From a virus: 40,518 bases of DNA. The notes beneath the pieces are model-generated. The model was not told where the DNA came from, did not search any database, and saw only the letters and a program-made list of their open reading frames with translations. The stretch lies in the IMG/VR virus record IMGVR_UViG_3300025133_000263, positions 1 through 40,518 of that record; one strand, given 5' to 3'. Below are positions 4,449-39,040 of this stretch, piece after piece; position 1 is the stretch's first letter, and each line of letters begins with the position of its first letter. A program made the translations under genes and the position numbers.

Positions 4449-4488
4449 TTCGTCCAAACAGTAGCACGAATCGATGTCGCTGACGACA

Positions 4489-5550
4489 TCAGGGAAGGAC
4501 GACAGGCATTAAAAGCGCCTCTGTCCCCCCAGCGGTAAGGACCATCGGTTGTGGTCCACCATCATTCGCCCCAAACGAAAGTTGGGCATTGTCGTCCAAA
4601 CCCTCTGCGAGGGTAGTTGTGGAGAGCGCATCGAGTATCACTCCGAGTAAAGTTGGACTCACTCCAACTCCTTCGACGTCGTCGTCTGACTTTATATCGA
4701 TCACCCCGTTGAACGCTCCCCTCGTAAAAGAGCCAGCGATTGAGAGCTTCGAGCCGTCAACGCAGAGTTTCCCGTACTCGTCTCCGCCCATCAGAATCTT
4801 TGATCGATCAGAAAGCTCCTTCAGCTTATCGAGCGACACTTGAGTTCCAATCCTCCCCTCCGCGTTCTTGGTATCTGGAAGAAGGGTGTCCACCGTCGAG
4901 TCGGGCCAAGGGATCGCCAAACTCTGCGCCCAACGAACCTGTTTGGTAGCCTCATCCTTGATCCATAACTTACTGTCCGGTCCCACAGCGATAGCCCCTC
5001 CGTCCTCGGACCCGACCAAGCCCCCAAGAGCCTGGGGTGATACCGATATGGCCTCCTCAAGCCCCAAAGAGACTCGATGAACGACTAGCATGGCCTGAGT
5101 CGCGCTCGCCGCCCAAGTCGCTGTGAGCCTTAGAGCGCTCATCGGACTCATAAGTGCATTCTCATCAGCGACCTCAGCCAGCGCAGCCATGCTGGTCATA
5201 CTGCTGCCCTCAATCTTAGACCAGAGATCGGCCTCTGGCTCGTCTGGGTACGGGTAAAGCATCTTGGCTGGGAAGCACTTCAGCTTAAACTCAGACCCTC
5301 CTCCGACAACGTGGAGCGTCGAACGCTTCAACGAAAGGACCGGATCTGGTATAGCCCCGACGACCTGTCTCAGATCCCTGAGCGGTACGTTCGCAGTAAC
5401 AGTCACACTCTCGACCGGAATCCGGCAACCGCTTATCCGGTTCGTGGCACAAATCGATCCAGGCTCAAGTCTAACTGTATGTTCCCCTGCCGCGTCAATC
5501 TTCTGACTCGCAAACCGTTGAATCACCGCTAAAGCACTCTTCAAGTCCAT
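4489..5550 (-). CDS. DnaN-like DNA sliding clamp (probable)
   Basis: 353 residues. The length and overall pattern fit a bacterial-type beta clamp: three similar beta-rich segments, a third segment with VSPTLLGVILDAL, and a C-terminal strand ending TEALLMPVVLP that resembles the typical DnaN ending. Clamps tether polymerases and other DNA-tracking proteins. The start is ATG 5550 with a perfect AGGAGGTG SD; a TTG one codon upstream is ignored. The gene lies between the lysis-type genes and terL rather than with the polymerase 26 kb away. That could mean a role in late transcription or packaging, as T4 gp45 has in late transcription, but this is inference. The fold call rests on weak sequence resemblance; a structural prediction would settle it. 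Confidence 0.6.
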   Translation of the reverse strand: MDLKSALAVIQRFASQKIDAAGEHTVRLEPGSICATNRISGCRIPVESVTVTANVPLRDLRQVVGAIPDPVLSLKRSTLHVVGGGSEFKLKCFPAKMLYPYPDEPEADLWSKIEGSSMTSMAALAEVADENALMSPMSALRLTATWAASATQAMLVVHRVSLGLEEAISVSPQALGGLVGSEDGGAIAVGPDSKLWIKDEATKQVRWAQSLAIPWPDSTVDTLLPDTKNAEGRIGTQVSLDKLKELSDRSKILMGGDEYGKLCVDGSKLSIAGSFTRGAFNGVIDIKSDDDVEGVGVSPTLLGVILDALSTTTLAEGLDDNAQLSFGANDGGPQPMVLTAGGTEALLMPVVLP

Positions 5551-5604
5551 CAATCACCTCCTACTATGTATATGACTCGAAACCTTCAAACGTCGGATTG
5601 TCGT

Positions 5605-5919
5605 CTACTCAGAAGACTCGACAGGAGCCGTCTGCTCGTCTGAGGGATCCTGAGTTTGCATCGTCTGAATACGTTTCTGTAGATCGTCAATTCCGTTCAT
5701 GTATACATCATCCTCAGCTGGCTTCGGGCGAAGACACGCCTCCAAAGCCTCCTGACACACTGCTAACTCAGCCCTCACGTCAGCGGTTGGGGCCTCGGCT
5801 GGAGTCTGCCCGTTAGCCACAGTGAGGTAAAAGAACAGCGCTACAACCCCAAAAAGAGCAGCTGTTAGTGCCACAAACTTACAGTCCGGTCGAGCCACAG
5901 TCTCAGTTGTATTATACAT
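5605..5919 (-). CDS. Small bitopic membrane protein, inner-membrane spanin-like
   Basis: 104 residues. One N-terminal transmembrane segment (about residues 16-34, rich in Phe, Val, Leu and Ala) is followed by a likely periplasmic region with an Ala/Glu/Gln-rich helix and a second short helix. This topology fits an i-spanin or holin accessory, but no family signature is visible. ATG 5919 is chosen over an ATG 48 nt upstream because GGAGGATTG precedes it. The start overlaps the preceding stop as TGATG. Position in a cluster of transpeptidase-fold protein plus two small membrane proteins supports a lysis role (inference). Confidence 0.75.
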   Translation of the reverse strand: MYNTTETVARPDCKFVALTAALFGVVALFFYLTVANGQTPAEAPTADVRAELAVCQEALEACLRPKPAEDDVYMNGIDDLQKRIQTMQTQDPSDEQTAPVESSE

Positions 5920-6146
5920 CAATCCTCCATCGCTCGAGCGCGAGCCTCTTTCATAAGCTTGGAGCAATCCTGTGCGATCTCCTCTAGAAGTTCGACTCGA
6001 ACCTCAAGAGCCGCGTTCTTAACCCGAAGATCCGTTACGCTTTGAGGTTCAATCGTAAGCCCGATGAGACTCCCCCCGGCACCTAAAGCCGCAAGGCTCA
6101 CGGCACCCAGAAGAATATTCTTCGGGTCTTTAAGGTCGATCTTCAT
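5919..6146 (-). CDS. Small membrane protein with C-terminal coiled coil (lysis cassette candidate)
   Basis: 75 residues. An N-terminal hydrophobic segment rich in Leu, Ala and Gly (about residues 11-32) is followed by a heptad-like helix (VTDLRVKNAALEVRVELLEE). The single-membrane-pass plus coiled-coil design resembles holins or i-spanins. The start ATG 6146 shares ATGA with the stop of the upstream gene and has a GGGAGA SD, so translation is coupled to it. Family not recognised; lysis role inferred from context. Confidence 0.7.
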   Translation of the reverse strand: MKIDLKDPKNILLGAVSLAALGAGGSLIGLTIEPQSVTDLRVKNAALEVRVELLEEIAQDCSKLMKEARARAMED

Positions 6147-6769
6147 TCGTTCTCCCACCATTGCTCCAAAAGTGTATACGTCAAAAAGGGCTTCCAGTCA
6201 GGGTGCATCGCAAATTGCATCTGCGCCAGTGCCATCATCTCTCTAAATCCGGTCGTGGTAGCATGGACCTGGCATCCCGCGCTCCATTTTCCAACCTCAG
6301 AGGTCTCAGGATCTCGGTCCCGGTCGCTCGTGTAAGGAGTGGAGGAGGAAGCGTGGATATTGATTCCAAAGTAGCCTTCAGCCTCATCTACGTTGTAATC
6401 CAGCTCCCCGTCTTTATCTGCGTCCCTCCAGACGCGAACTGGGCCTCCCCTCTGGCAGAGAGCGTCATACTTACCAGCGTGCTTATCAATCGCGTACACT
6501 CCTGGGTACTGTCCCGGCTGCAAAATCGCGGTTCCACGTACATTCATCGGGTTCTCCCGGTAGTACGTTCCAGGATCGCAGGTTGCTGCCCAGTAGCGTA
6601 CGTACCACTGGTCCTGGATCCTATAGGCGCATCCGAGAAGGTCGTTGTAGACTCCACTCTGGATATCGGCTGAGCGGATCCCAAACAGATTCAGATTGTA
6701 GTCCCCGTTCACAAAGACTTTAAAGCCTAGAGCTTTCATCCTGGCCAAGACTGGAGGTAAGAGCGACAT
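6143..6769 (-). CDS. L,D-transpeptidase/YkuD-fold phage protein, probable cell-wall enzyme
   Basis: 208 residues. The C-terminal half has GINIHAS (His139) and VGKWSAGCQVH (Ser163, Cys166), the His...SxGC pattern of YkuD-type L,D-transpeptidase catalytic sites. Phages carry such domains in endolysin-like or wall-modifying proteins. Between the halves is a DADKDGELDYNVDE-like stretch (residues 116-129) that matches an EF-hand calcium loop. No signal peptide is seen, so export would need a holin. The start ATG 6769 has AGGAAA upstream. This is the first gene of the late operon, after a 277-bp control region. Whether it cuts or cross-links peptidoglycan cannot be told from sequence. Confidence 0.72.
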   Translation of the reverse strand: MSLLPPVLARMKALGFKVFVNGDYNLNLFGIRSADIQSGVYNDLLGCAYRIQDQWYVRYWAATCDPGTYYRENPMNVRGTAILQPGQYPGVYAIDKHAGKYDALCQRGGPVRVWRDADKDGELDYNVDEAEGYFGINIHASSSTPYTSDRDRDPETSEVGKWSAGCQVHATTTGFREMMALAQMQFAMHPDWKPFLTYTLLEQWWENE

Positions 6770-6797
6770 TGCGTTTCCTATTCGATGGGTGCGTTGC

Positions 6798-6825
6798 AGT
6801 CTTATCCACTTTAGTGGATAAGACT
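6798..6825. repeat. Perfect 13-bp inverted repeat
   Basis: Arms AGTCTTATCCACT and AGTGGATAAGACT (6798-6810 and 6813-6825) are separated by TT. There is no T run after it on either strand, so an operator is more likely than a terminator. It lies 29 nt upstream of the late operon start codon. Confidence 0.8.
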
Positions 6826-6856
6826 AGTGTGTTCAAAGCTGGTGTGTTCATTGGGA

Positions 6857-6896
6857 CTGACACCTGTGTCAGTGACCCCCCTGACACACGTGTCAG
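6857..6896. repeat. Tandem palindromic operator-like sites
   Basis: Two copies of CTGACAC-N2-GTGTCAG (6857-6872 and 6881-6896) have perfect 7-bp arms and differ only in the 2-bp centre. Centres are 24 bp apart, a little over two helical turns. This is typical of paired sites for a dimeric DNA-binding protein. Confidence 0.75.
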
Positions 6897-6941
6897 GTAG
6901 GGTAGCTCGATTGTCGCCAAAATGTCCATACCCCAGCGACG

Positions 6942-6977
6942 AAAAAACCCTCATCCGGCTGACACCGAATGAGGGTT
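6942..6977 (-). terminator. Rho-independent terminator
   Basis: On the minus strand a 13-bp stem (arms 6946-6958 and 6965-6977, one G-T pair) with a 6-nt loop is followed by six T. It ends the operon of the 7047-8071 genes. Confidence 0.88.
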
Positions 6978-6983
6978 CCCTCA

Positions 6984-7042
6984 ATAAAAAGCTCCCCTCG
7001 GTCCCAGAAAACTCGTGAATACAAGCTTCAGAGGGGAGCTTT
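6984..7042 (-). terminator. Second terminator, upstream of the first
   Basis: A perfect 12-bp stem (AAAGCTCCCCTC pairing with its complement, 6988-6999 and 7031-7042) encloses a 31-nt loop and is followed by TTTTTA-like bases on the minus strand. It starts 5 nt after the stop of the 7047 gene, giving tandem terminators. Confidence 0.75.
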
Positions 7043-7046
7043 AAGT

Positions 7047-7484: not shown

Positions 7485-8071
7485 TACCGTGCCCCTCCCG
7501 ACATTGCCTTGTCCTGCCAGTACGGAACCGATATCGCTAACTGAGCCTCGAGCTGCTCAGCTGTCATCCCCGTGGGAGTGCCTCCATCGAGCCCGAAGTG
7601 ATTTGCCAGCAGAGTGTCTGGATGGATAGGCTCTCCTCCCTCCAATGGGCTTGCGTTAATCGAAACCACCTCCCAGTGGTTTTCGGTCACGTCGAACTTC
7701 ATTTCCGCGTCCTTACCCAGAACCTTGCTTTGAAACATCACAATGTGAACCGCCTTCGCCTCCATCTTTGAGCCGCCCTTCGCCCGAACTGCCTTCCGAG
7801 GAGCCTCTGGAGTTCCGCACGGGAGATCGCGTCGGGATTCAAATACTCCCCCAAGCTCATCTCCAGCCTTCAGAATCACAACCCCGCTGAAGAAGTTCTC
7901 GGGAGGCACGTCAACGGTAACGACTCCGTCCCTGAATCCAGGCTTTCGGTTTTCCCAGTTCTCTCGAACTAGATCCAAGATGCTGGTTGAGCTTCCGGTA
8001 TAGTGGCTCAGTGAGCCTTGCGGTGTGTGGCGCTTTTCCGCGTATCTGGTCATTGCTAATATCAGTTCCAT
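7484..8071 (-). CDS. Hypothetical protein, 195 aa
   Basis: Soluble mixed alpha/beta protein with a basic segment (APRKAVRAKGGSKMEAK) in the middle. No family recognised. An ATG four codons upstream (MEIEM...) is in frame, but GGAG placed 6 nt before the second ATG and the parallel case at 9869 favour ATG 8071. The leader is a GGA-loop hairpin like the one of the 9869 gene. Translation continues into the next gene through a TAATG overlap. Confidence 0.75.
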   Translation of the reverse strand: MELILAMTRYAEKRHTPQGSLSHYTGSSTSILDLVRENWENRKPGFRDGVVTVDVPPENFFSGVVILKAGDELGGVFESRRDLPCGTPEAPRKAVRAKGGSKMEAKAVHIVMFQSKVLGKDAEMKFDVTENHWEVVSINASPLEGGEPIHPDTLLANHFGLDGGTPTGMTAEQLEAQLAISVPYWQDKAMSGGAR

Positions 8072-8355
8072 CTCAATCTCCATTGTCGTCTACTTTCTAG
8101 GTTGTCTCCCCAACGAACTCACCGGCTAATCCCGGATACGAAAGTTGAAGAAAGTTTGAATTAAATTGTGTGAGGGCTCCCAACTCCCCTCACGTGGGTA
8201 CGACCTACAGCAGAGTTGGTGGTCTGACTCTGCTACGCTTACGCAACGACGTCCAAGGGCAAACCCCTCAGAACTCTCGCTCGTACCCCCCACATCCCTC
8301 CAAGTGCCGCCATCCCGGTCTGACTCGGGATGACGGCAGGGCTTGGAGGCACCCT
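8072..8355 (-). other. 284-bp intergenic region with three hairpins
   Basis: No ORF is convincing. Minus-strand RNA could form: an imperfect long hairpin at 8297-8349 (outer CCTCCAAG and inner CCATCCCG helices), beginning 6 nt after the stop of the upstream gene; an 8-bp perfect hairpin at 8209-8234 (AGCAGAGT arms); and a 7-bp hairpin at 8170-8193 (GTGAGGG arms). None has a good U tract. It may hold a terminator, a processed leader and a promoter for the 8071 gene. I cannot place a -10/-35 pair. Confidence 0.55.
8074..8085 (-). promoter_or_regulatory. GGA-loop hairpin over SD of the 8071 gene
   Basis: The minus strand reads CAAT-GGAG-ATTG: a 4-bp stem with the SD GGAG as loop, ending 2 nt before ATG 8071. 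The sister site at 9872 reads CGAT-GGAG-ATTG, where a G-U pair keeps the stem, so pairing is conserved despite a base change. Confidence 0.5.
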
Positions 8356-9099
8356 CTAAGAAGCAGATTTGAACTTAGCCTCAGCCTCAGCTCGTTTTTT
8401 AGCCTTATCAGCCAGCTCATCTTGAATACGCTTAACCGCACTTGAGGGAATCGGCGGTACTTTACCTCCCTTGAACATTTTATTGAACTCGGTAGGAGTC
8501 GGTACTTTGAAGATCCCCTTATCGCAAATGTAGCTCCGTCCTGGGAAGGCGAGCACGAGCACCCGCATGAGAAGCGGACTCGTTGACACCTCGAAGTCCC
8601 AGTGGAATTTCCCATGCTCAGTGACCTCTTTGCAGGGTCGTCCCTTCAGCCAGTTGCTTCTTCGCAGGGTAGTGAACTCGAGAGAATAGGGAGTCCACAG
8701 TCGGACAAAGTCGGCTCGTTCACCCGTTTTGAATTCCCGACGACGCTCGCGATCCCATCCCCAGACAGGTAGATCCTTCACAATCGTCATACGAATTCCC
8801 AGAAATCGGTCGCGTACCCTTTTGGCGACCGTGTCGAAGCCCAGCTTTTCAATCTCGTCAGCGAGTCTCAGAACTTCTGAGTAATCGTCAAATTCGCAAG
8901 CGAATCCAGCTTCGTGGATCATACCGCTGACATCAGCTCGTTCCTTAGCGTTAAGCGCCTTGAATCGGCCCGAGAAGCCGTACTTCTTCGAGCAGGTAGG
9001 TCCAATCCCGGTTTCGACGCTCTGGGCCTCCACGAGGAGCCTCCCGCAGCAACAGCACTTAGTCGCGAGGCGATACCTATTTCGTTTTCTTAATGTCAT
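8356..9099 (-). CDS. Zinc-knuckle phage protein (DUF6011-like N-terminus), 247 aa
   Basis: The N-terminus has CCCCGRLL followed by GIGPTCSKKYG. This Cys-x2-Cys...GIGPxC pattern is shared by phage proteins with a DUF6011-type zinc ribbon. The middle has WGWDRERRREFK and WLKGRPCKEV segments, and the last 25 residues are a Lys/Ala/Glu helix. Function unknown; nucleic-acid binding is plausible. ATG 9099 overlaps the preceding stop as TGATG, with AAGG upstream. Confidence 0.8.
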   Translation of the reverse strand: MTLRKRNRYRLATKCCCCGRLLVEAQSVETGIGPTCSKKYGFSGRFKALNAKERADVSGMIHEAGFACEFDDYSEVLRLADEIEKLGFDTVAKRVRDRFLGIRMTIVKDLPVWGWDRERRREFKTGERADFVRLWTPYSLEFTTLRRSNWLKGRPCKEVTEHGKFHWDFEVSTSPLLMRVLVLAFPGRSYICDKGIFKVPTPTEFNKMFKGGKVPPIPSSAVKRIQDELADKAKKRAEAEAKFKSAS

Positions 9100-9371
9100 C
9101 AGACCTTCCCCTTCAGTAGTTTGTTTCGCTTATCAAAAACCTGGATCTCTTTTACGACCCAGCCGAACGTCTTCCATCGATCAATCGTGACCTGACGCTC
9201 GGTCGCTGTTTGCCGAGGTTGGCAAAGTTTGACTTCACGCTCGTAAGGCTTCTCAGCTGGACTTCCGATCCCGACGACTGCCTTAAAGTCAGACGGGAAA
9301 CATGCGTCATAGCGCAGCATATCTATGGGGAACATTCCTTTCCCCTCTACGATGAAAATGACTCGATACAT
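9099..9371 (-). CDS. Hypothetical protein, 90 aa, with GGA-hairpin leader
   Basis: Begins MYRVIFIVEGKG; compact, alpha/beta and basic at the C-terminus (FDKRNKLLKGKV). No family recognised. The in-frame upstream ATG would add MEAL, but that ATG lies inside the conserved leader hairpin, and GGAGG is correctly spaced only for ATG 9371. It is preceded by a terminator and two hairpins, so it is separately controlled. It overlaps the 9099 gene. Confidence 0.75.
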   Translation of the reverse strand: MYRVIFIVEGKGMFPIDMLRYDACFPSDFKAVVGIGSPAEKPYEREVKLCQPRQTATERQVTIDRWKTFGWVVKEIQVFDKRNKLLKGKV

Positions 9372-9373
9372 AA

Positions 9374-9387
9374 GTGCCTCCATGCAC
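9374..9387 (-). promoter_or_regulatory. CsrA-type GGA hairpin leader, copy 1
   Basis: The minus strand reads GTGC-ATGGAG-GCAC, a 4-bp stem with an ANGGAN hexaloop. The GGAGG SD spans loop and 3' arm. The start codon follows 2 nt later. A second stem-loop (5-bp GAGGC/GCCTC, 9391-9405) sits just upstream. Confidence 0.65.
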
Positions 9388-9412
9388 GTTGAGGCTGCAT
9401 GCCTCTACCACC

Positions 9413-9443
9413 AAAACCCCGTCCCTTGCGGGTACGGGGTTTT
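9413..9443 (-). terminator. Terminator between the 9462 and 9371 genes
   Basis: AAAACCCCGT pairs with ACGGGGTTTT, with an inner CCC/GGG and one bulged base. The minus-strand 3' arm ends in TTTT. Confidence 0.8.
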
Positions 9444-9461
9444 GACGCTTTACTTGTCGTT

Positions 9462-9869
9462 CTAAAGTAGTGAATCCCAGCTGGATGGATACCCGGCAAC
9501 TTGTAAACTGCGACCGGCTTTCCTCCAGTACCAGCGGCCCCCTGAGAAGACGTAGGCATAACTGAGCCCGCCGATGATCTTATCCCATGTCGTTTGTATT
9601 CCTGGTCGGAGGTTCTCCCCGCGATCTCGATGATACGAAACCGTGGTTCCTGTTTCCGGTTCGCGCCATGAGTGGTCCCCCGTAGGATCGACGCGCTCGC
9701 CCAGCGAGCTGATATCGCCCAGCTTGATAAGCCTTTGAACCTTCTCAACGTCCGTGTAGTGTGTAGCTAAAACACCTCCTACAGCTTTGCGAGACCCGTC
9801 ATTGTGGCAGTAAATTGCGGTGATAGTTCCATCCGCGTTCTCGATACCGATGTGGCAGCGTGTACTCAT
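9462..9869 (-). CDS. Conserved phage protein (MSTR...GIENxDG family), 135 aa
   Basis: The N-terminus MSTRCHIGIENADGTITAIY, then CHNDG, VLATHY, LGDISSLGE and a C-terminal YAYVFSGGRWYW match a small family I recall from many phages, with no established function. The start is ATG 9869, because the family begins MSTR and GGAG is spaced 6 nt before it; the upstream in-frame ATG would add MEIE. The gene is driven by a recognised promoter (9922-9950) and its leader has a GGA-loop hairpin. Confidence 0.85.
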   Translation of the reverse strand: MSTRCHIGIENADGTITAIYCHNDGSRKAVGGVLATHYTDVEKVQRLIKLGDISSLGERVDPTGDHSWREPETGTTVSYHRDRGENLRPGIQTTWDKIIGGLSYAYVFSGGRWYWRKAGRSLQVAGYPSSWDSLL

Positions 9870-9871
9870 TT

Positions 9872-9883
9872 CAATCTCCATCG
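9872..9883 (-). promoter_or_regulatory. GGA-loop hairpin over SD of the 9869 gene
   Basis: CGAT-GGAG-ATTG on the minus strand, 2 nt before the start codon; related to the site at 8074. A second GGA sits upstream in the loop of a mRNA 5' hairpin (GG-ATGGAC-CC). Confidence 0.5.
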
Positions 9884-9921
9884 TCGTCTAGTTTCTACTG
9901 AGTGGGTCCATCCCTCTCACA

Positions 9922-9950
9922 ATTGTAATGAAAACGACATCAGGGTTAAG
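9922..9950 (-). promoter_or_regulatory. Promoter P1 of a repeated phage promoter family
   Basis: Minus strand: CTTAAC (9945-9950), 17 bp, TACAAT (9922-9927). The spacer carries the GTCGTTTTCAT block shared with other copies. The expected mRNA begins in an imperfect hairpin with a GGA loop. Confidence 0.7.
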
Positions 9951-9961
9951 CGTCAATGTCG

Positions 9962-10387
9962 TCAAACTTTATTTGATAGCGATAAGATCCCGTTCATGGC
10001 TTCAACCTTGCTCCTGGTCGAGTAGAGAAGATTGAGACAGTCGTGAAGATCCTTCATCCGCTCACAGCAGTTCAATTTGTTGAACTCGACCTGCTGTCTC
10101 TGATCTCCGACAACCATCGGGTTCCACGGCACCTCCTCCATTTGGAGAGTCTGGTACCACAGGTTTATCTCACCCTGCAATTCCGACTCGAGGCGCTCGA
10201 GCCCCTGGATGGTCCCGTCGAGATCCTTCAAAGTGAAATGATGGCCTCCGCTTAGCTTATTCAGACCCTTATGGAGCCCCGGAGGAGCCCGGTTACATAA
10301 CCGCTTGAGAGACTTTGAGGATTGTCGTCCCTCCACCGTCTTCACCTCAAACTTAAAATACAGATCGTATGCCATTCCGTGTTGCAT
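9962..10387 (-). CDS. Hypothetical protein, 141 aa, helical
   Basis: Begins MQHGMAYDLYFKFEV. The remainder is largely helical, with regions such as LDGTIQGLERLESELQGEI suggesting a coiled-coil bundle and a Cys pair (NCCERMKDLHDC). No family recognised. I start at ATG 10387, after AGGGGGACGGAA. A longer frame to 10501 overlaps a better small gene, so it is rejected. It follows the 41-residue membrane protein by 10 nt. Confidence 0.75.
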   Translation of the reverse strand: MQHGMAYDLYFKFEVKTVEGRQSSKSLKRLCNRAPPGLHKGLNKLSGGHHFTLKDLDGTIQGLERLESELQGEINLWYQTLQMEEVPWNPMVVGDQRQQVEFNKLNCCERMKDLHDCLNLLYSTRSKVEAMNGILSLSNKV

Positions 10388-10397
10388 TTCCGTCCCC

Positions 10398-10523
10398 CTA
10401 ATAGTGAGTCGATGTCCGTTCCCATACCAGCAGCATGAGATGGACGTAGATGGCGATTGGAATGACGACTCCGTAGAAGAGCCAGATGAATGCTTTGTCA
10501 TACTTAGAAAGGGGCTTACTCAT
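10398..10523 (-). CDS. 41-residue single-pass membrane protein
   Basis: Begins MSKPLSKYDK and ends ERTSTHY. The centre (AFIWLFYGVVIPIAIYVHLM plus LLVW) is one continuous hydrophobic segment; positive residues before it predict an N-in topology. SD GAGG lies 7-8 nt upstream of ATG 10523. The gene ends 10 nt before the next start, consistent with coupling. It could be a small inner-membrane regulator, a superinfection factor or a holin-like peptide; function unknown. Confidence 0.65.
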   Translation of the reverse strand: MSKPLSKYDKAFIWLFYGVVIPIAIYVHLMLLVWERTSTHY

Positions 10524-10565
10524 TATCGTACCTCGTTTGTGGGAAGCTCGGAAACCGACGTTTTA

Positions 10566-10590
10566 GATAAGCGTCAATCCTGCCCCCCTA
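10566..10590 (-). promoter_or_regulatory. Degenerate copy of the promoter family
   Basis: Minus strand TTGACGCTTATC, then GTCGGTTTC further on, matches the upstream half of the P1-P3 promoters. At the expected -10 place (10543-10548) there is AGCTTC, so the promoter may be dead or need another factor. It is upstream of the 41-residue gene. Confidence 0.4.
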
Positions 10591-10752
10591 TATGTTGGGG
10601 GAGAAGCCCTCCCCCCAGCGGTAAAGTGCTGAGGGGAGAGCTAGGAGAAGCAGCTTGCGCTGCTCGGGGATGGTGCGAACGGTCGACGCACCAGAAACCC
10701 GTTCAGGTACTGTACGCCTCCACACTGGAGGCATCCAGTCTATATGTTGGGG
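10588..10752 (-). ncRNA. Structured intergenic element flanked by 13-bp direct repeats
   Basis: Between two copies of CTATATGTTGGGG (10588-10600 and 10740-10752) are four consecutive stem-loops: 10609-10638 (11 bp, one mismatch), 10649-10664 (AGCAGC/GCTGCT, perfect), 10672-10692 (GGTGCG/CGCACC, perfect) and 10716-10732 (GCCTCC/GGAGGC, perfect). No ORF fits. It follows the stop of the 10753 gene directly. It could be a 3' UTR, a processed small RNA or an inserted element; strand is assigned from gene direction only. Confidence 0.5.
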
Positions 10753-11145
10753 TTAGCTACTGAAGTGGGCCTCGGTCCAGTCATAACCATCGCTCACTGT
10801 CTCACTGACGTCCTCTATCGCGGACAGAACCTCGGAGGTAAATCGCTCTGATTGATAAGAATCTGCGGGTACGAGAATGTCGAACGGATAGCACACGCGG
10901 ATAACGTGACTCGACTTTCCGTTCTGGACTATGACCCATTCGTCATTCTCATCGTGGAGCTGATCGAACCCTGGAAGCTCGGAAGTGTAATAAGCAGCTC
11001 CCGCTCCCCACGTCACGATCTTCAGTGGAGTGTCTACGGGAGTCGACGGGTCCATCGGGTTTGGAGCAGACAGGATGATGTATCGCCCAAGTTGAACTCC
11101 GTTGTGGTCGGAGAATAAGTTTGTAATCCATTCTACTGCGTTCAT
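10753..11145 (-). CDS. Hypothetical protein, 130 aa
   Basis: Acidic protein with beta-rich middle (QLGRYIILSAPNP, DEWVIVQNGKSSHVIRV) and an acidic C-terminal helix. No family recognised. The start overlaps the upstream stop as ATGA and has a G-rich SD. It is probably co-translated with the 11459 gene, both under the GGA hairpin leader. Confidence 0.75.
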   Translation of the reverse strand: MNAVEWITNLFSDHNGVQLGRYIILSAPNPMDPSTPVDTPLKIVTWGAGAAYYTSELPGFDQLHDENDEWVIVQNGKSSHVIRVCYPFDILVPADSYQSERFTSEVLSAIEDVSETVSDGYDWTEAHFSS

Positions 11146-11459
11146 TCTGCACCCCCCTCTGGTCCCTTCCAGTCGGGAAACCGCTCGCGGATGTATGCCT
11201 CTTGCTCCTTGCCAGTTAGCTTAGTCGTCCGCCAGAACTCAGTTCTGGTCTGGGCAGGGACCAGAAGATTGAAGATCTCCAGGGTCAGAGCTTTTGGCGA
11301 CATTGCCTCAATCTCCTCTTCTGGGATATCGCGTCCTCTCAAGTTGAAGAGAGCCGCGATCAGCTGATTGTTCCGCGTCTCAGGGTCGGATACAGCATCC
11401 TCAAGAGCATCCATCAGAGCCTTACGAAACTGAGTGTGGTGTGTTTTTGGTGTAGTCAT
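11142..11459 (-). CDS. Hypothetical protein, 105 aa, with GGA-hairpin leader
   Basis: Begins MTTPKTHHTQFRKALMDALEDA. Mostly helical, acidic, ends in a Gly/Glu tail (WKGPEGGAE). No motif. ATG 11459 is chosen; an in-frame ATG five codons earlier lies inside the conserved hairpin and would add MEALI. GGAGG is 8 nt from ATG 11459. First of a two-gene unit with the 10753 gene. Confidence 0.75.
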   Translation of the reverse strand: MTTPKTHHTQFRKALMDALEDAVSDPETRNNQLIAALFNLRGRDIPEEEIEAMSPKALTLEIFNLLVPAQTRTEFWRTTKLTGKEQEAYIRERFPDWKGPEGGAE

Positions 11460-11464
11460 AATAA

Positions 11465-11478
11465 GTGCCTCCATGCAC
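11465..11478 (-). promoter_or_regulatory. CsrA-type GGA hairpin leader, copy 2
   Basis: GTGC-ATGGAG-GCAC, identical to copy 1. A second stem-loop (GGGAG/CTCCC, 11483-11497) precedes it and a strong 13-bp hairpin (11507-11535) comes before that. Confidence 0.65.
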
Positions 11479-11506
11479 GCTGGGGAGTGAATCTCCCACC
11501 TGAGAA

Positions 11507-11535
11507 GCCCCGCTCCCGCACAGCGGAAACGGGGC
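11507..11535 (-). terminator. Strong hairpin, probable terminator
   Basis: A 13-bp helix including two G-U pairs (GCCCCGTTTCCGC with its partner), loop TGT, followed by TTCTC on the minus strand. The U tract is poor, so it may instead be a mRNA boundary or stabiliser. It is 16 nt past the stop of the 11552 gene. Confidence 0.6.
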
Positions 11536-11551
11536 AGTCGTCGTCTAAGGT

Positions 11552-12541
11552 TTACCAGTCTTTGAGTATCTCGCTCACTTTACGCATCGCTTCTAACTGC
11601 TCGGGTGTGTGCTCTCCGAGCGGAGTGTTTATGACCTCACCCCACTTCGCCTTCTCCGCTTCGTACTCGGCATTCGTAAGTGGCTCACCTATCGCAGCCT
11701 CCGCCGCCCAGTCGCGCTTCCACTCTTCGATTGTATCTTCGATGTCCAGCGTTGACTTGAAGTCAGACGTTTGGAGGAGTAGGCGAGCCGGTTCTTCGAA
11801 TCCGTATTTCGCCATCCAGCGCATCATATCCAGCAGTGCCGACTCATCGTCATCGAGCATTCCGTAGTAGTGGATAGCGGCATAAGCGTATTGGTCCACA
11901 ACGTAGTTGCCAAAGCCTTCTGCGGAGAAACGCCCAATGTCAGGCTCTTCGTCGTCCTCCATCATCTCAGCCATCTTATCGGACGGGATAGCGCGAATCG
12001 CCTCCCGAGCCTTGTGCGCCAGATCGAGGTCGGCTCGCACAGTTTCCACAGCATCGGCAAAGTCGGGGATATACTTTCCAGCCAGCTTGAGCTTGGCGAG
12101 CACCACTTCCCCGTCTGGAGACACCCAGCAGTGTATCGCGTAGCGATACTGCTTAAAGCGCACTCCGAGTTCAGCGCACTCCTCTTTGCTTTTTAACTGG
12201 ATTGCCGTGTGCCACATCTTCCATCCCGCCTCAACCATCGAAGTGGTCAGAGGGTAGTTGGTTTTCTTCAGTGAAAACGAGTAGCAGTCGGGAGATTTAT
12301 GCGTAGGTCCATCCTTCGAGAGATTGAAACGGAGATGCTCGCGCCCCTGTTTGATTAGGTAATTCGCCCATCGTTGGAACTCGCGGTCCCATCCCAAAGT
12401 TCCGGGCTTAGTCAACGCTGGTGGAGTGTCTCCTCCTTGGTTGTAAAAAAGATCCGGTCCAGTCGGTAAAAACTCGTTTGGGTAATGACCTGCCTTGAGC
12501 CAGGATTTTGCTTTATCAATATTCATTGCTACGTTGAGCAT
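11552..12541 (-). CDS. Hypothetical protein, 329 aa, with GGA-hairpin leader
   Basis: Largest protein of the accessory region. It has a lysine/aromatic-rich N-terminal half (CYSFSLKKTNYPL, MVEAGWKMWHTAIQ), a VSPDGEVVLAKLKL strand segment, then acidic helical repeats (MEDDEEPDIGRF, MLDDDESALLDMMRWM). No family recognised. ATG 12541 is used; upstream in-frame ATGs lie in or before the hairpin. It has its own promoter P2 and a 5' hairpin. Confidence 0.8.
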   Translation of the reverse strand: MLNVAMNIDKAKSWLKAGHYPNEFLPTGPDLFYNQGGDTPPALTKPGTLGWDREFQRWANYLIKQGREHLRFNLSKDGPTHKSPDCYSFSLKKTNYPLTTSMVEAGWKMWHTAIQLKSKEECAELGVRFKQYRYAIHCWVSPDGEVVLAKLKLAGKYIPDFADAVETVRADLDLAHKAREAIRAIPSDKMAEMMEDDEEPDIGRFSAEGFGNYVVDQYAYAAIHYYGMLDDDESALLDMMRWMAKYGFEEPARLLLQTSDFKSTLDIEDTIEEWKRDWAAEAAIGEPLTNAEYEAEKAKWGEVINTPLGEHTPEQLEAMRKVSEILKDW

Positions 12542-12543
12542 AA

Positions 12544-12557
12544 GTGCCTCCATGCAC
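12544..12557 (-). promoter_or_regulatory. CsrA-type GGA hairpin leader, copy 3
   Basis: GTGC-ATGGAG-GCAC ending 2 nt before the start codon. Preceded by a 6-bp hairpin GTGGGA/TCCCAC (12563-12580). Confidence 0.65.
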
Positions 12558-12588
12558 ATTGTGTGGGAATAGGCTCCCACCAGCTAAA

Positions 12589-12616
12589 GCCCGCCCCAGC
12601 CGAAGCCAGGACGGGC
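12589..12616 (-). terminator. 12-bp hairpin with TTCG loop at the P2 mRNA 5' end
   Basis: GCCCGTCCTGGC pairs with its partner over 12 pairs (three G-U) around a TTCG tetraloop, then TTT. By position it could terminate transcripts from the 12666 gene. It also falls about 2-4 nt after the expected start of the P2 transcript, so it may be an attenuator or a 5' stabilising stem-loop. Confidence 0.65.
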
Positions 12617-12624
12617 GATTCACA

Positions 12625-12653
12625 ATTGTAATGAAACCGACCTTCCAGTTAAG
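12625..12653 (-). promoter_or_regulatory. Promoter P2 of the repeated family
   Basis: Minus strand: CTTAAC (12648-12653), 17 bp, TACAAT (12625-12630), with GTCGGTTTCAT in the spacer. A copy of the ATTGTCG motif abuts its upstream side (12658-12664). Confidence 0.7.
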
Positions 12654-12665
12654 CGTCATTGTCGC

Positions 12666-12881
12666 CTAAGACACGGAAGGCTCCCCAATGCCAGCGAAAC
12701 TGAAGTCTCCAGCCAAACACGCAGCCGTCTCAGCGTCAGTCGCTTTGCGATAATCAGGTCTCCTCTGCTCCGACTTCTTACAGTCGAAGCAGACGAGCCT
12801 CAGCGAATACATACTCATGATGTGCGAGCCCGTTGCCTTTCCACAACGCTGACAGTGGCCGTCCCAGGGTATCAGTTCCAT
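12666..12881 (-). CDS. Small zinc-binding protein, 71 aa
   Basis: CQRCGKATG and CFDCKKSEQR form two Cys-x2-Cys knuckles about 20 residues apart, a zinc-ribbon layout. An acidic/Ala tail follows. Likely a DNA- or protein-binding accessory; no specific family. GGTGAGGAA SD before ATG 12881. It lies 4 nt from the preceding gene. Confidence 0.78.
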   Translation of the reverse strand: MELIPWDGHCQRCGKATGSHIMSMYSLRLVCFDCKKSEQRRPDYRKATDAETAACLAGDFSFAGIGEPSVS

Positions 12882-12885
12882 TTCC

Positions 12886-13326
12886 TCACCTTCCTATATC
12901 GTCCAGACTCCATTGTCGCTCTGAGCCAAGGTTGTAGCAGCCGTAACACTGTCCCGTCTGGTCCTCAGCGTCGTCCCAGGTAACGTCCACCTCTTTGCAT
13001 TCCGAGCATTTCCCGCCCAGTTCAGTCCAATCAGCCTTGAGTTTGCGGAGATACTCCTCGTCCTCTTCATGGACGACGATGCGGACGGGCTCGGTCTCGG
13101 GCTCAGGCTCGGCGTCGTACTCCGGGTCCATCCCATACTGAGTCTCCTCAAAAACTGGGGTGTCGTCTAACTCCTTCAAAAGCAGCTCATGCATCTGATT
13201 AAGGGCTTCCCAGCAGTATCCAAGCTCCGCAGCCTGCTGGTCTTTGGTTAAAGAGGGTGACCTAAATCCGGCTAAGTTGCGAAGTGCTCGCTGGGTCAGG
13301 TCGTAGAATTGTTGTGTTAACTTCAT
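12886..13326 (-). CDS. Zinc-knuckle protein, 146 aa, with GGA-hairpin leader
   Basis: The N-terminal half is helical (KLTQQFYDLTQRALRNLAGF). A Glu/Pro-rich acidic linker follows (around residues 65-85), then a C-terminal knuckle CSEC...CYGC. No family recognised. ATG 13326 has GGAGG 6 nt upstream inside the hairpin, so the longer frame to 13437 is rejected. It probably forms a unit with the 12666 zinc protein. Confidence 0.78.
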   Translation of the reverse strand: MKLTQQFYDLTQRALRNLAGFRSPSLTKDQQAAELGYCWEALNQMHELLLKELDDTPVFEETQYGMDPEYDAEPEPETEPVRIVVHEEDEEYLRKLKADWTELGGKCSECKEVDVTWDDAEDQTGQCYGCYNLGSERQWSLDDIGR

Positions 13327-13329
13327 GAT

Positions 13330-13343
13330 GTGCCTCCGTGCAC
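13330..13343 (-). promoter_or_regulatory. CsrA-type GGA hairpin leader, copy 4 (ACGGAG variant)
   Basis: GTGC-ACGGAG-GCAC; the loop base that CsrA tolerates as N is C here. No second hairpin precedes it, because the 13352 gene ends 8 nt upstream. Confidence 0.65.
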
Positions 13344-13351
13344 TTAGGGTT

Positions 13352-13588
13352 TCAGTTGTTTTTGTGGATAAGATTTTTGGTTGCGATGCTGAGTACCCGG
13401 AGCCGACTCCTGAGATTGGGTTCAACCCACACCTCAAGAGAAGGCACCCAGTAGCGGACGTAGCCCCGAAGAAGTCGGTTGTTCTTCTTTCGTGATTCCG
13501 CGTCAGTTTCCGAGCTGAGTAGTGGATCCTCTAGGAGCCAACCCACCACTTCGGTTATCATCGCCGCTGGCATTTGTATCTTCGCCAT
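13352..13588 (-). CDS. Hypothetical protein, 78 aa
   Basis: Begins MAKIQMPAAMITEVVGWLL; basic, Arg-rich C-terminal half (RGYVRYWVPSLEVWVEPNLRSR). No family recognised. AAGGAGG SD; the start overlaps the preceding stop as TAATG. Confidence 0.72.
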   Translation of the reverse strand: MAKIQMPAAMITEVVGWLLEDPLLSSETDAESRKKNNRLLRGYVRYWVPSLEVWVEPNLRSRLRVLSIATKNLIHKNN

Positions 13589-13911
13589 TAGAAACCTCCT
13601 TGCCGGGTTTTGTGCTCTGCCACAATCGCACCGTCAGACTGACGAACCAAACGGGTCGTGAGCAGTCGCACAGTTTTGTCGGGGTAAACGTGGTCGTTCG
13701 CGCCACCAGGGGCGAAACTTGCTTCAAACGCGGTGACGTGCCGCTCCAAGTCAGTCAGCGCAGCGGGACCGCGTATGGCACCGCCGCCAAACTTTCGGTC
13801 GCGTGACCATGCCGCGTCCGTGAAGCGCGGGGTTGTCCAATCGCCATCGCTGTCGATTGCGATGACTACGGTGTATTCGACCCGGTGGGTCGGTGTGAAT
13901 GATCTTCCCAT
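13588..13911 (-). CDS. Hypothetical protein, 107 aa, with GGA-hairpin leader
   Basis: Begins MGRSFTPTHRVEYTVVIAIDSDGDW; Arg/Asp-rich with a likely beta core. No family recognised. Under promoter P3 and leader copy 5. Coupled to the 13352 gene by TAATG. Confidence 0.75.
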   Translation of the reverse strand: MGRSFTPTHRVEYTVVIAIDSDGDWTTPRFTDAAWSRDRKFGGGAIRGPAALTDLERHVTAFEASFAPGGANDHVYPDKTVRLLTTRLVRQSDGAIVAEHKTRQGGF

Positions 13912-13914
13912 GAT

Positions 13915-13928
13915 GTGCCTCCGTGCAC
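13915..13928 (-). promoter_or_regulatory. CsrA-type GGA hairpin leader, copy 5 (ACGGAG variant)
   Basis: GTGC-ACGGAG-GCAC, 3 nt before ATG 13911. A 6-bp hairpin (GAGGGG/CCCCTC, 13931-13948) lies directly upstream at the expected mRNA 5' end. Confidence 0.65.
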
Positions 13929-13953
13929 TGGAGGGGAGCGTCCCCCTCTCACA

Positions 13954-13982
13954 ATTGTAATGAAAACGACATCAGAGTTAAG
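13954..13982 (-). promoter_or_regulatory. Promoter P3 of the repeated family
   Basis: CTTAAC (13977-13982), 17 bp, TACAAT (13954-13959) on the minus strand. The spacer is nearly identical to that of P1, including GTCGTTTTCAT. Confidence 0.7.
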
Positions 13983-14061
13983 CGACACTCTTTTGAAAAA
14001 AGTTTATTGTCGCTTATTTAGCCAGAACCGAGAGTTTGTAATCTCGCAGCTCCGATTTGGA

Positions 14062-14256
14062 TCACTCTTTCAAGATCCTTTTGATTCGGTAGTCCCGTGG
14101 TGCTCGGACGTTAAGTGAACACCGACCGGACTGGGAGTCCGCGCAGTACACGACTACCGGCTCCCTGCCAGGAATGGTGATGACAATCTCGTCTCCACGC
14201 TTCAGAGTCAGCGTAAGCGAGCCAGTCGTGTTTCTGGCTTTTCGAGCTTGTTTCAT
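14062..14256 (-). CDS. CsrA-like RNA-binding translational regulator (probable)
   Basis: 64 residues. GDEIVITIPG aligns with CsrA strand 2 (GDEVTVTVLG). Near the C-terminus CSLNVRAPRDYRIKR aligns with the strand 4-5 signature VRIGVNAPKEVSVHR, keeping the Ala-Pro pair and the last Arg, which corresponds to the RNA-contacting Arg44. The N-terminal LILTR strand is only loosely matched by SLTLTLK, and a short insertion separates the two blocks. CsrA binds GGA in hairpin loops and blocks translation. It starts 3 nt after the upstream stop with no clear SD, so it is probably coupled. Promoter P3 and several GGA-hairpin leaders lie just downstream. The family call is moderately sure. Confidence 0.55.
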   Translation of the reverse strand: MKQARKARNTTGSLTLTLKRGDEIVITIPGREPVVVYCADSQSGRCSLNVRAPRDYRIKRILKE

Positions 14257-14259
14257 AGA

Positions 14260-14658
14260 CTACTTTAAGGCCAGAACCGCTGCCTTCACCACGACAGTAC
14301 CGACGTCCTTCAGAGCGATAGAAAGCGCTCGTGTCATCCGAGTTGCTCGAGCCTTCCGAGCCGACTCCGCTCCCTGGAGAGCGTCGACTAAGTCACTCAT
14401 ATACACTCCGCTTTCCTTCAGCTTATAAATCGCCATTGGATCCGAGCCGTCGATCAGAGACTGGAGATGACCAGCAACGTCCTCGATGGCGTCCGTGCCA
14501 TTCTCCTTCACAAAATCGGCGACAATCCCAAGGACTCCACTTACGAGTGGGTCGTCCTCTTTATTAGCCAAAGACTGAACTGCTTCCGAGACTGCCCCCG
14601 GAACTGCCTTCGTAAGGGATTTGGTGACCGCATCTAAGATTGATTCTTTTTCACTCAT
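14260..14658 (-). CDS. Hypothetical helical protein, 132 aa
   Basis: Ala/Val/Lys-rich and predicted almost all helical (SILDAVTKSLTKAVPGAVSEAV, GVLGIVADFVKEN). There is no membrane segment, though the C-terminal helix is hydrophobic (GTVVVKAAVLALK). Family unknown; a structural role is possible. Good SD AGGAGGCGAAG. It overlaps the stop of the lipoprotein gene and leads directly into the CsrA-like gene. Confidence 0.75.
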   Translation of the reverse strand: MSEKESILDAVTKSLTKAVPGAVSEAVQSLANKEDDPLVSGVLGIVADFVKENGTDAIEDVAGHLQSLIDGSDPMAIYKLKESGVYMSDLVDALQGAESARKARATRMTRALSIALKDVGTVVVKAAVLALK

Positions 14659-15091
14659 CTTCGCCTCCTACTTCAAGCCCAGCCGGATCTGCCTCTGGGT
14701 CGGCTGGTGAGATACAGTAACCAGCCGCCGCCTGCTCCCCCACCGCTGGGCCTGGACCGGGATCAGGCTGGGTAGCCTTCGGATCGGGCAGCGAGCCGTC
14801 AGGGAGGGGATAGGGAAGGCCAGCGAGGTAGAGAGCCCGGTAAGCCTGTGCCTTAGCCTTAGCCTGGATAAGGATCGCTGGTTTGGCGTACTCCCGACAC
14901 GACTCCTCCTCTCCAGCCGCCATCGCCTTATCAGCTGCGGCAAAGAGCGCAGTCGCTGCCTCCTGTTCCCGTTGAAGTCCCGCGAGGATCTCAGCCGTGT
15001 AGGTATTAGTATCGCGGATCACCCGCTTTGGGATGGTCGCACAAGATGCGAACAAAAGAGTTCCAATAAAATAGACTACAAACCTCTTCAT
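14651..15091 (-). CDS. Phage lipoprotein, 146 aa
   Basis: MKRFVVYFIGTLLFASC is a short type II signal peptide with lipobox FASC (Cys17). The mature part is helical and Ala-rich, then Pro/Gly-rich (PDPGPGP). Such lipoproteins can be outer-membrane spanin subunits or superinfection-exclusion factors; nothing here decides. ATG 15091 follows GGAGGGCTC, so the longer frame to 15136 is rejected. Its end overlaps the next gene. Confidence 0.8.
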   Translation of the reverse strand: MKRFVVYFIGTLLFASCATIPKRVIRDTNTYTAEILAGLQREQEAATALFAAADKAMAAGEEESCREYAKPAILIQAKAKAQAYRALYLAGLPYPLPDGSLPDPKATQPDPGPGPAVGEQAAAGYCISPADPEADPAGLEVGGEDE

Positions 15092-15099
15092 GAGCCCTC

Positions 15100-15312
15100 C
15101 TAGCTCTCCCCGATACTGGGGTTCCAGGGAAACCAAACAGTCTCCCTATCATCTTCCTTTAACACCTCGACGCAAGAGGGAACCACAGCGAGTGCAGATA
15201 GTGGGATCTCGCCGTAGACGCGCTCAATCGCGTCTATAATCGAGTCCACAGCCTCCCAAGACCCCTGAGTGTGAGCAATTTTGAGCGCTAGAGCAACTTC
15301 AACTGGACTCAC
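15100..15312 (-). CDS. Hypothetical protein, 70 aa, GTG start
   Basis: Begins MSPVEVALALKIAHTQGSW; a small helical protein with a Trp-rich end (ETVWFPWNPS). The GTG at 15312 has GGAGGG 4 nt upstream. It overlaps the preceding gene by 14 nt. Family unknown. Confidence 0.7.
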   Translation of the reverse strand: MSPVEVALALKIAHTQGSWEAVDSIIDAIERVYGEIPLSALAVVPSCVEVLKEDDRETVWFPWNPSIGES

Positions 15313-16069
15313 TGGACCCTCCTACCTCAGCACCGAGACCCGTGAGTTCAGTGAACTCACTAAGTAGTTCCTCTAGCTTAGCAGGATTGTCTGTTAAATC
15401 GTCGGAGAGCTTTTCATTAAGCCCGTATGGGCGCTGACGAGAACCGTTCCTCGGATCGTCGTCCCCACCCAGTGCCTTACTCGTAACGAGCCGAGCTTTA
15501 TCTCCGAACGGCATCATTATTCCTGGGGGAAGTGCGTAGATCCGATACTGGTTTGCGCTATCCATCACTCTGGACGCTGCTGGGTAGAGCATCGCACCAT
15601 CCGCGTTTATACCCAGAAGCTCATTCTTAATCCGCTGGAGGGTTCTCCAATGGTTGTAGTCGATAGCCAGCTTGTCTCGGCGCTTCACCGACAGCTCAGC
15701 GATTGGAGGGTTGTCGTCGTCGTCTAACATTTTGTGGATAGTGACCCAGACCTCAAAGATATTGTTTCTGAATATCTTGTCAGGGGTTCCCCCTCTCAGC
15801 TCCATCGCTTTTTTCATCTTTGGAGGAAGATCGCTCGACATATGCTCCCAGTCTCCCCACTTATCCCACTCAGAGCCTCCCAACGCGCTCTGAGCTGTCT
15901 CCATTGCCTGTCTAAGCCCCGTCGCCGCTAGTTCCAGCTCCATGTAGTCCTCGGTTTCTTCGCCTCCGAGCATCCGACCAACTGCCGTGACGAGCCCCTC
16001 CAGCGCAGTTCGCACTTCAGAGACTCTGTCCAAAGCCTTTGTTAGTTTCATATCAGTCACCTTTCCCAT
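15299..16069 (-). CDS. Hypothetical protein, 256 aa
   Basis: The N-terminal helical region (LTKALDRVSEVRTALEGLVTAV) is followed by an acidic/Trp segment (WDKWGDWEHMSSDLPP), a central region with DDDDNPPIAELSVKRRDK, and a short Ser-rich tail. No catalytic motif is seen. SD AAGGAGG; the start codon is embedded in a copy of the ATTGTCG motif (CGACAATG). Confidence 0.78.
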   Translation of the reverse strand: MGKVTDMKLTKALDRVSEVRTALEGLVTAVGRMLGGEETEDYMELELAATGLRQAMETAQSALGGSEWDKWGDWEHMSSDLPPKMKKAMELRGGTPDKIFRNNIFEVWVTIHKMLDDDDNPPIAELSVKRRDKLAIDYNHWRTLQRIKNELLGINADGAMLYPAASRVMDSANQYRIYALPPGIMMPFGDKARLVTSKALGGDDDPRNGSRQRPYGLNEKLSDDLTDNPAKLEELLSEFTELTGLGAEVGGSSESS

Positions 16070-17902: not shown

Positions 17903-18454
17903 TCGTCACTCCCATTCATAACCACCTCCACACTTACTTATGCCCGGAGACGCGTGAACGTCACGTTTGTCGCCAAAGTTGGCCCCAACAGCAAAATTGG
18001 AAAATGTGCGAGTCGGGTTGCTTCAAACAGCGCCCCTCACGAAGCTCGCACTCTCCGTCGTGTTTCTCAGGCTCCCAGATCGTTATGGAATTGAACACCC
18101 CTTCCTAGAGCTTAGGGACTCCACGCAAGTTGCAGAAGTAGAAAGGGCACTGCACCTTATGACTGGAGACTGAAATACGTCAACGGATAAAAGGGCTGCT
18201 TTGGGCCTTATTCGCGGGTTTGGGGCACTCTAGCCTCGCGATCTCGCGGCTTTCACGGGAGTTTGTCGGGTACAGGTACCTTCTGCGGTAAATCTCAGAA
18301 GCATCTTTTTTAAGAAAGTTTGGCACTTACCGTCAGATGAAAAAGCATAGCGGGTGGAGCCAATATCGAGGATAAAGCGACAATGACTGAACCATTGTCG
18401 CTTACAGCTTATGGTAGTCAAAGCCAAATTCTATCAAATTCGATAGATGCCCGA
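17903..18454. other. 552-bp gap without a gene; candidate control or origin region
   Basis: I find no credible ORF or tRNA on either strand. It holds a perfect 11-bp-arm inverted repeat at 18375-18403, a smaller one at 18433-18450 (TCTATC/GATAGA), a CGCGA/TCGCG palindrome near 18238 and two ATTGTCG motif copies in inverted orientation. A promoter for the 17902 gene is expected, but no -35/-10 pair is convincing. Confidence 0.55.
18375..18403. repeat. Inverted repeat built from two ATTGTCG motifs
   Basis: Arms AAGCGACAATG and CATTGTCGCTT are perfect complements (11 bp) around a 7-nt loop. There is no T tract, so an operator or protein-binding site is more likely than a terminator. Each arm contains one copy of the over-represented motif. 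Confidence 0.75.
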
Positions 18455-29199: not shown

Positions 29200-29339
29200 C
29201 CCATCACCTCACTCTTCGCTGACTCAAAGGAAAGTCCTTCGGTTGTCGTACCCAATGTCGCTGAGCGACATTGAACCATCAATTCACACTCCACGCAGCC
29301 TCGGTCATCTGGCCAGTACTGGAGGAAGCACGCTTTCAA
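29196..29339 (-). CDS. 47-residue Cys-knuckle protein between SSB and RecA genes
   Basis: A TTG start at 29339 overlaps the SSB stop (TTGA) and has GGGAG 6 nt upstream. The stop shares ATGA with the RecA start. The N-terminal half has four Cys in the pattern C-x10-C-x2-C-x5-C (CFLQYW...RGCVEC...QC), close to the C-x11-C-x2-C-x5-C of the 34157 protein. It likely binds zinc or an iron-sulfur cluster. A 21-bp palindrome is embedded in the gene. Not recognised; perhaps a recombination accessory. Confidence 0.6.
   Translation of the reverse strand: MKACFLQYWPDDRGCVECELMVQCRSATLGTTTEGLSFESAKSEVMG
29253..29273. repeat. 21-bp perfect palindrome
   Basis: CAATGTCGCT-G-AGCGACATTG has 10-bp arms around one base. 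It is a near relative of the ATTGTCG motif (AATGTCG). It lies inside the coding part of the 47-residue gene, so codon choice is constrained there. Confidence 0.7.
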
Positions 29340-39034: not shown

Positions 39035-39040
39035 CTCATA

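Follow-up and report, generated by a model that had tools for sequence, protein, structure and literature searches.

On balance, our analysis favours the view that an uncultured family of tailed phages runs a Csr circuit of its own, in which a divergent CsrA would act on near-identical hairpins at ribosome-binding sites (RBS; six or more genes in the phage described here, ten in the relative L041, and csrA itself in L013), with a block of genes switched at translation and with multi-hairpin spacers like the one at 10588-10752 setting message ends. The window, that is, the whole stretch of DNA that was analysed, is the 40,518-base virus record IMGVR_UViG_3300025133_000263, which represents a tailed phage and holds nearly all of its genes on the minus strand (Table 1). 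No close named phage was found, the best terminase matches being about 30% identical. When single proteins were used as queries, the products of genes 11552 and 10753 gave no relatives, whereas the terminase did. In one of the loci examined, L003, a 1216-aa protein is encoded past the terminase (11692-15342), and its C-terminal part resembles a type IB DNA topoisomerase when the translation is read by eye.

Table 1. Coordinates of genes, predicted hairpins and repeats in the window.
Feature	Position	Strand	Remarks
Terminase large subunit	2784-4457		PHROG match
Sliding-clamp-like protein	4489-5553		PHROG match
DNA polymerase I-like protein	31053-33086
AAA+ ATPase gene	37881-38957	minus
CsrA-like protein, 64 aa	14062-14256	minus	predicted RNA-binding
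130-aa gene, upstream neighbour of the four-hairpin element	10753-11145	minus	stop codon TAA at 10753-10755
41-aa ORF past the four-hairpin element	10398-10523	minus	GAGG 7 nt ahead of ATG; a single hydrophobic stretch
Untranslated spacer containing the four-hairpin element	10524-10752	minus	between gene 10753-11145 and ORF 10398-10523
13-bp direct repeat, copy 1	10740-10752	minus	immediately 3' of the TAA stop codon
13-bp direct repeat, copy 2, CCCCAACATATAG	10588-10600	minus	inside the fifth hairpin, 10584-10601
Hairpin 1	10739-10709	minus	inner 10732-10716 perfect; alternative 6-pair hairpin 10724-10739 mutually exclusive with it
Hairpin 2	10693-10671	minus	7-pair stem, perfect
Hairpin 3	10664-10649	minus	6-pair stem, perfect; GCAA loop
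Hairpin 4	10642-10605	minus	15 pairs, not perfect, -30.7 kcal/mol; TCTCCCCC comes next, with 2 T in 8
RBS hairpin GUGC-AUGGAG-GCAC	9374-9387	minus	before start at 9371
RBS hairpin GUGC-AUGGAG-GCAC	11465-11478	minus	before gene 11142-11459
RBS hairpin GUGC-AUGGAG-GCAC	12544-12557	minus	before gene 11552-12541
RBS hairpin GUGC-ACGGAG-GCAC	13330-13343	minus	before gene 12886-13326
RBS hairpin GUGC-ACGGAG-GCAC	13915-13928	minus	before gene 13588-13911
RBS hairpin GUGC-AUGGAG-GCAC	40213-40226	minus	before start at 40210
Imperfect RBS hairpin GAGC-CUGGAG-GCAC	38961-38974	minus	one broken pair; before AAA+ ATPase gene 37881-38957

The minus strand has six exact copies of GTGCNNGGAGGCAC, each of them ahead of a start codon. 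With up to two mismatches allowed and both strands counted, this sequence has 13 matches where 4.3 were expected, a number that was reached in none of 100 shuffles. Read as RNA, it folds into a hairpin of four pairs that covers the Shine-Dalgarno sequence and has the hexaloop A-N-GGA-G, the arrangement of a textbook CsrA site, and it is because of this likeness that a CsrA was searched for in the phage. The window's minus strand has 6 hexaloop hairpins with an ATG 3-15 nt past the GGA and L041 has 10, against 0.35 expected in either case. Further csrA-carrying loci have one (L012 and L014) or two (L013) such hairpins, and a single one is present in each of the control loci L008 and L016, where the loop is not of the A-N-GGAG type. 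In L013, the RBS hairpin at 2851-2864 lies just before the start of the csrA-like gene at 2869, which suggests autoregulation in that phage. The stem still pairs in the variants GUGC, GCGC, GAGC, UCGC, ACGC and CAGC, and its outer pair occurs as GC, CG, AU and UA; among 11 distinct stem rows, most of which had been pre-chosen for the stem, 97.7% of the cells are paired and 11 cells are changed on both sides. Since the second loop letter varies (U, C or A), what is kept is the Shine-Dalgarno sequence and not the AUG that is found inside some of the loops.

The phage also seems to encode its own CsrA-type RNA-binding protein. The product of gene 14062-14256 matches PF02599 at 14077-14217 with an E-value of 1.4e-5 and with 21.1-22.2 bits against a cut-off of 27; because this score is under the curated cut-off, we call the protein CsrA-like. 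Homologues were found in L041 and L006 and, by profile, in 7 of the 13 terminase relatives searched. CsrA is the best Pfam match for all seven distinct homologues (the window's protein included, and the copies in L010 and L011 counted as one), each of them scoring below 27 bits (16.7-26.7). M1, L14, A52, P53 and R60 are invariant in these seven proteins, and the last four of these residues are aligned with L4, A36, P37 and R44 of CsrA, of which L4 and R44 are conserved RNA-contact residues. In L012, the csrA-like frame (5699-5884) is closed by a TGA that still falls within the very last part of the profile match, so that protein may be slightly shortened.

The AlphaFold model of the 64-aa protein has a pLDDT of 87. 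With this model, Foldseek returned CsrA-family chains at all of ranks 1-13 (probability 0.96-1.00, TM by query 0.49-0.61, E-values of 0.07 or worse), and VIA-align returned them at ranks 1-7, with Z-scores of 4.2-6.2 over 50-51 residues and the next row at 3.3. A Z-score below 8 would be weak alone; we nevertheless assign a CsrA fold to the predicted structure because of the drop in score after rank 7 and because all seven top entries are CsrA. With the protein as query, phmmer retrieved no CsrA from among the PDB sequences and a tblastn search against named phages found no real homologue, so that the kinship with CsrA is drawn from profiles and fold only.

Whether the hairpins go with csrA was assessed without selection for pairing, by taking all A-N-GGAG sites before a start codon or ORF and scoring them for at least four Watson-Crick pairs. 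In the eight csrA-carrying loci, 21 of 108 such sites are paired, compared with 3 of 250 sites in which the loop starts with another letter. The paired sites are distributed as 6/35 in the window, 10/22 in L041, 1/11 in L006, 1/15 in L012, 2/8 in L013 and 1/3 in L014, with 0/7 in both L010 and L011, which carry a csrA-like gene and have no RBS hexaloop hairpin; these two are nearly copies of each other, which means that 7 unpaired sites among the 108 are counted twice. In 31 terminase relatives in which no csrA-like gene was detected, many of them fragments and most of them distant, none of 108 A-type sites and 1 of 269 sites with other first letters is paired. Absence of csrA was called with profile A4 in 25 of these relatives and with profile A3 in 6, and in 18 also with PF02599. 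Two phages contribute 16 of the 21 paired sites, many of which are identical, so the paired sites may be copies of one leader. Because copies enter the Fisher values (2e-9; 3e-7; 0.003 when the window and L041 are left out) as if they were independent, these values are too optimistic. Moreover, six named phages that carry csrA gave 4 of 79 paired A-type sites versus 2 of 212 for other first letters, hence few RBS hexaloop sites, which indicates that the RBS-hairpin habit is not general to phages with csrA.

Genes of this phage are thus probably under RNA-level control by its own CsrA-like protein. Judging from the sequence, we infer that the protein would bind the A-N-GGAG hexaloop hairpins over the Shine-Dalgarno sequence of at least six genes and that binding would be repressive, the bound CsrA blocking ribosome entry until it is titrated or diluted. 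The predicted arrangement resembles the RBS repression exerted by CsrA, RsmA and RsmE (for example RsmE on the hcnA Shine-Dalgarno sequence, PDB 2jpp) in the A-N-GGA hexaloop, the short stem over the Shine-Dalgarno sequence, the CsrA-like fold and the key residues. It differs from it in that protein and sites are found in one phage, that the protein scores under the Pfam cut-off and that one genome has many near-identical sites. Many phages carry csrA genes, and homologues in tailed phages are known. One survey reported csrA in 30 of 2517 phages (PMC7366521), the csrA of phage JC1 was called a moron and one peptide of it was recovered from virions (PMC9144972), and in a 2025 study knock-down of the csrA homologue of PTXU04 led to substantially fewer plaques (PMC11879866). 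In that last report, the role of phage csrA in the phage life cycle is described as not tested before, and the protein is proposed to act on the host. Known phage csrA genes are thus treated, in the portions of these papers that were seen, as morons or as host-acting, in contrast to the present case, in which the putative targets are the phage's own mRNAs. Those portions of the three papers give no indication of phage mRNAs as CsrA targets, and no report of a phage-encoded CsrA acting on phage mRNAs was found in searches of the open-licence literature.

As for the four-hairpin stretch itself, the likeliest reading is that of an unremarkable structured spacer separating two genes of the phage. 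The initial annotation had described four consecutive stem-loops, three of them perfect, between identical 13-bp repeats. Indeed, CTATATGTTGGGG occurs exactly at 10588-10600 and 10740-10752, 152 bp from start to start, the four stem-loops were found on the minus strand with hairpin 4 as the imperfect one, and the GGAGG noted in an arm of the hairpin at 10716-10732 is present. A fifth hairpin that had not been described (10601-10584, minus strand) has the second repeat copy as its left arm and loop. Gene 10753-11145 has its stop codon 13 nt ahead of hairpin 1, and the last hairpin lies before the 41-codon ORF, which starts 60 nt beyond it and is preceded by GAGG. For the product of this ORF, membership of the antenna-complex family was considered (Pfam E-value 0.003, sub-threshold) and the match was taken for a chance similarity between membrane helices. 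The statement that the element contains no ORF is correct for the minus strand but not for the plus strand, where a mechanical ORF (10305-10763, 152 aa, TTG) is open throughout; it is antisense to the genes and is not thought to be coding. In L010 and L011, gene 10753-11145 has a homologue (34%) whose stop is overlapped by the following gene, so that these loci have no comparable spacer.

A 55-nt sequence occurs in four minus-strand copies before genes (9912-9966, 12615-12669, 13944-13998 and 39031-39085; 67-87% to the first). Three of these copies carry TTAACY-16-TACAAT and are likely phage promoters. A partial copy of this promoter-like sequence, without the -10, lies past the element at about 10540-10580.

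On the minus strand, 10588-10752 folds at -76.9 kcal/mol (z -6.1; none of 200 shuffles as low), compared with a z of -2.95 on the plus strand (2 of 200 shuffles as low), which suggests that an RNA would derive from the minus strand, like the genes. This strand bias also argues against a double-stranded DNA feature, either a replication origin or an operator cluster, whose protein-binding sites would be the repeats and whose dyads would be the hairpins. Direct repeats and dyads do lie together here in a non-coding gap, and another gap of this phage has a conserved dyad pair; nevertheless, with a repeat in two copies only and with a GC skew that, computed in 2-kb windows, does not switch near 10.6 kb (it is at its weakest around 10-15 kb, however), we regard such a feature as improbable.

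The density of hairpins had been thought much higher than in other gaps, which is not what we observed. Of 18 gaps, one was too long to be folded; among the other 17, 6770-7046 has a z of -7.2 and 9369-9461 one of -5.9, equal to that of the element's own gap, 10524-10752 (-5.9), and gap 11460-11551 gave -3.6 on the minus strand. In L041, 11 gaps have z values from -2.5 to -10.0; 30 random 165-nt coding pieces had a mean z of -0.35 and a lowest value of -4.84. Single hairpins of -10 kcal/mol or lower occur at 12.2 per kb in gaps and at 14.0 per kb in the remaining sequence, so that gaps are not enriched in them. A common plan is seen on the coding strand of the gaps, also between the genes of L041, with a strong hairpin that often has a short T run at its end, a second small hairpin and then the ribosome-binding site. 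Hairpin 4 and the fifth hairpin fit this plan, to which hairpins 1-3 are extra. Two other gap hairpins on the minus strand, at 18375-18403 (GCGACAAT/ATTGTCGC) and 29251-29275 (AATGTCGC/GCGACATT), are perfect or near-perfect.

A conserved multi-hairpin module was observed at 6797-6916 on the minus strand, upstream of gene 6143-6769, and also at L041:11377-11493, L005:657-774 and L004:270-379. It is made up of CGACAAT, dyads of the form TGACAC-NN-GTG(T/G)CA, GAACA repeats and a long hairpin. The dyads are exactly 24 nt apart in the window, L041 and L005, with a single copy in L004, and the long hairpin differs in sequence while its pairing is kept in each phage (z -10.0 for the L041 gap). The module could be an operator pair or a structured leader and, unlike the four-hairpin element, it has relatives. 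CGACAAT is frequent, with 31 minus-strand and 18 plus-strand occurrences in the window, and often stands directly before start codons or hairpins (GACAATG, GGAGACAATC-ATG), an observation that covers the window, L041, L010 and L011.

Relatives of the four-hairpin element were sought in several ways. Queried as DNA against phages and plasmids, the element or its surroundings yielded either no match or chance-level ones, no exact 20-mer of the element was found in viral contigs, blastn against the 63 fetched loci (1.06 Mb) gave one match with an E-value of 0.22, and the window holds no second copy. With no relative in the material searched, the pairing in the element may be unselected. Eight viral contigs with the pattern CCAACATATAG N125-155 CCAACATATAG were set aside as unrelated to the element, being repetitive, apparently protein-coding and weakly folding. 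These results bear on the suggestion that the element might be an inserted cassette of about 139 bp, with a 13-bp target duplicated on entry. The exact direct repeat at both ends could be such a target-site duplication, and when the insert is removed on paper the flanks form one simple hairpin past the stop codon. However, the repeat list contains no terminal inverted repeats, there is no transposase ORF inside, and no empty site was seen in the fetched loci; 8 of the 63 do contain the 10-base core CAACATATAG, but all of these are unrelated and were brought into the set through that very pattern. Shuffling of the element's gap alone gave an exact 13-mer pair within 170 bp in 3 of 20000 trials, but dinucleotide shuffling of the whole window gave one in 20 of 200, so the repeat is close to what chance would yield when the full window is taken into account. 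An insertion, which is not borne out by inverted repeats, a second copy or an empty site, thus appears unlikely.

It had also been proposed that the element is a small RNA, perhaps a sponge for an RNA-binding protein. A discrete RNA that titrates the phage CsrA-like protein, in the manner of CsrB or RsmZ, would make biological sense in a phage with such a protein, and the minus-strand fold is strong. Like CsrB/CsrC and RsmX/Y/Z, the element combines several hairpins in a short non-coding stretch with a csrA-like gene in the genome, but it has no GGA in a loop and hence no recognisable CsrA site. None of the four minus-strand GGA of 10521-10760 sits in a hairpin loop, their paired probabilities being 0.67-1.0 save for one bulged G at 0.09, and the sponge idea therefore fails by motif. 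Furthermore, the window has no Rfam match at gathering score (10480-10800 gave only chance-level matches, best E-value 1.4), and a scan for sigma-70-like promoters found no such site on the minus strand from 12625 to the element. We consider a discrete small RNA of this kind very improbable.

A third suggestion, that of a processed 3' UTR, fits best as regards placement, given that the element starts 13 nt past a stop codon and ends before the 41-codon ORF; the processing itself is only putative. The element would be the structured untranslated end of a minus-strand gene unit running from 11459 down to 10753, and its hairpins, at the 3' end of the mRNA, may bring about a partial transcription stop, form a barrier to exonucleases that protects the upstream message, or do both. 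Hairpin 4 would be the main 3'-end hairpin, the second repeat copy being merely part of the next one. The element shares with intrinsic terminators and 3'-stabilising hairpins of phage and bacterial mRNAs a strong GC-rich stem past the stop codon on the coding strand; it differs from them in its weak U tract, in three further hairpins without a tail and in the 13-bp repeat. With its 15-pair stem of -30.7 kcal/mol, yet only 2 T in the next 8 nt, hairpin 4 resembles the other gap hairpins and not a textbook terminator. A terminator role, which we infer for hairpin 4, is weakly supported, because there is no proper U tract and the hairpin was not listed in a terminator scan of 8000-15000. Taken jointly, a structured 3' spacer within a wider setting of CsrA-type RNA-level control by the phage is the best explanation of the element, and one that we hold to be fairly probable.

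To conclude, the four-hairpin element alone is probably an ordinary structured spacer, and what matters is the predicted Csr circuit to which it led. This circuit, if real, would supply a function for a sort of phage protein that so far has none assigned. Since the protein and its candidate targets lie within one phage, with stems that covary between relatives, the question of what a phage wants with CsrA becomes directly testable.
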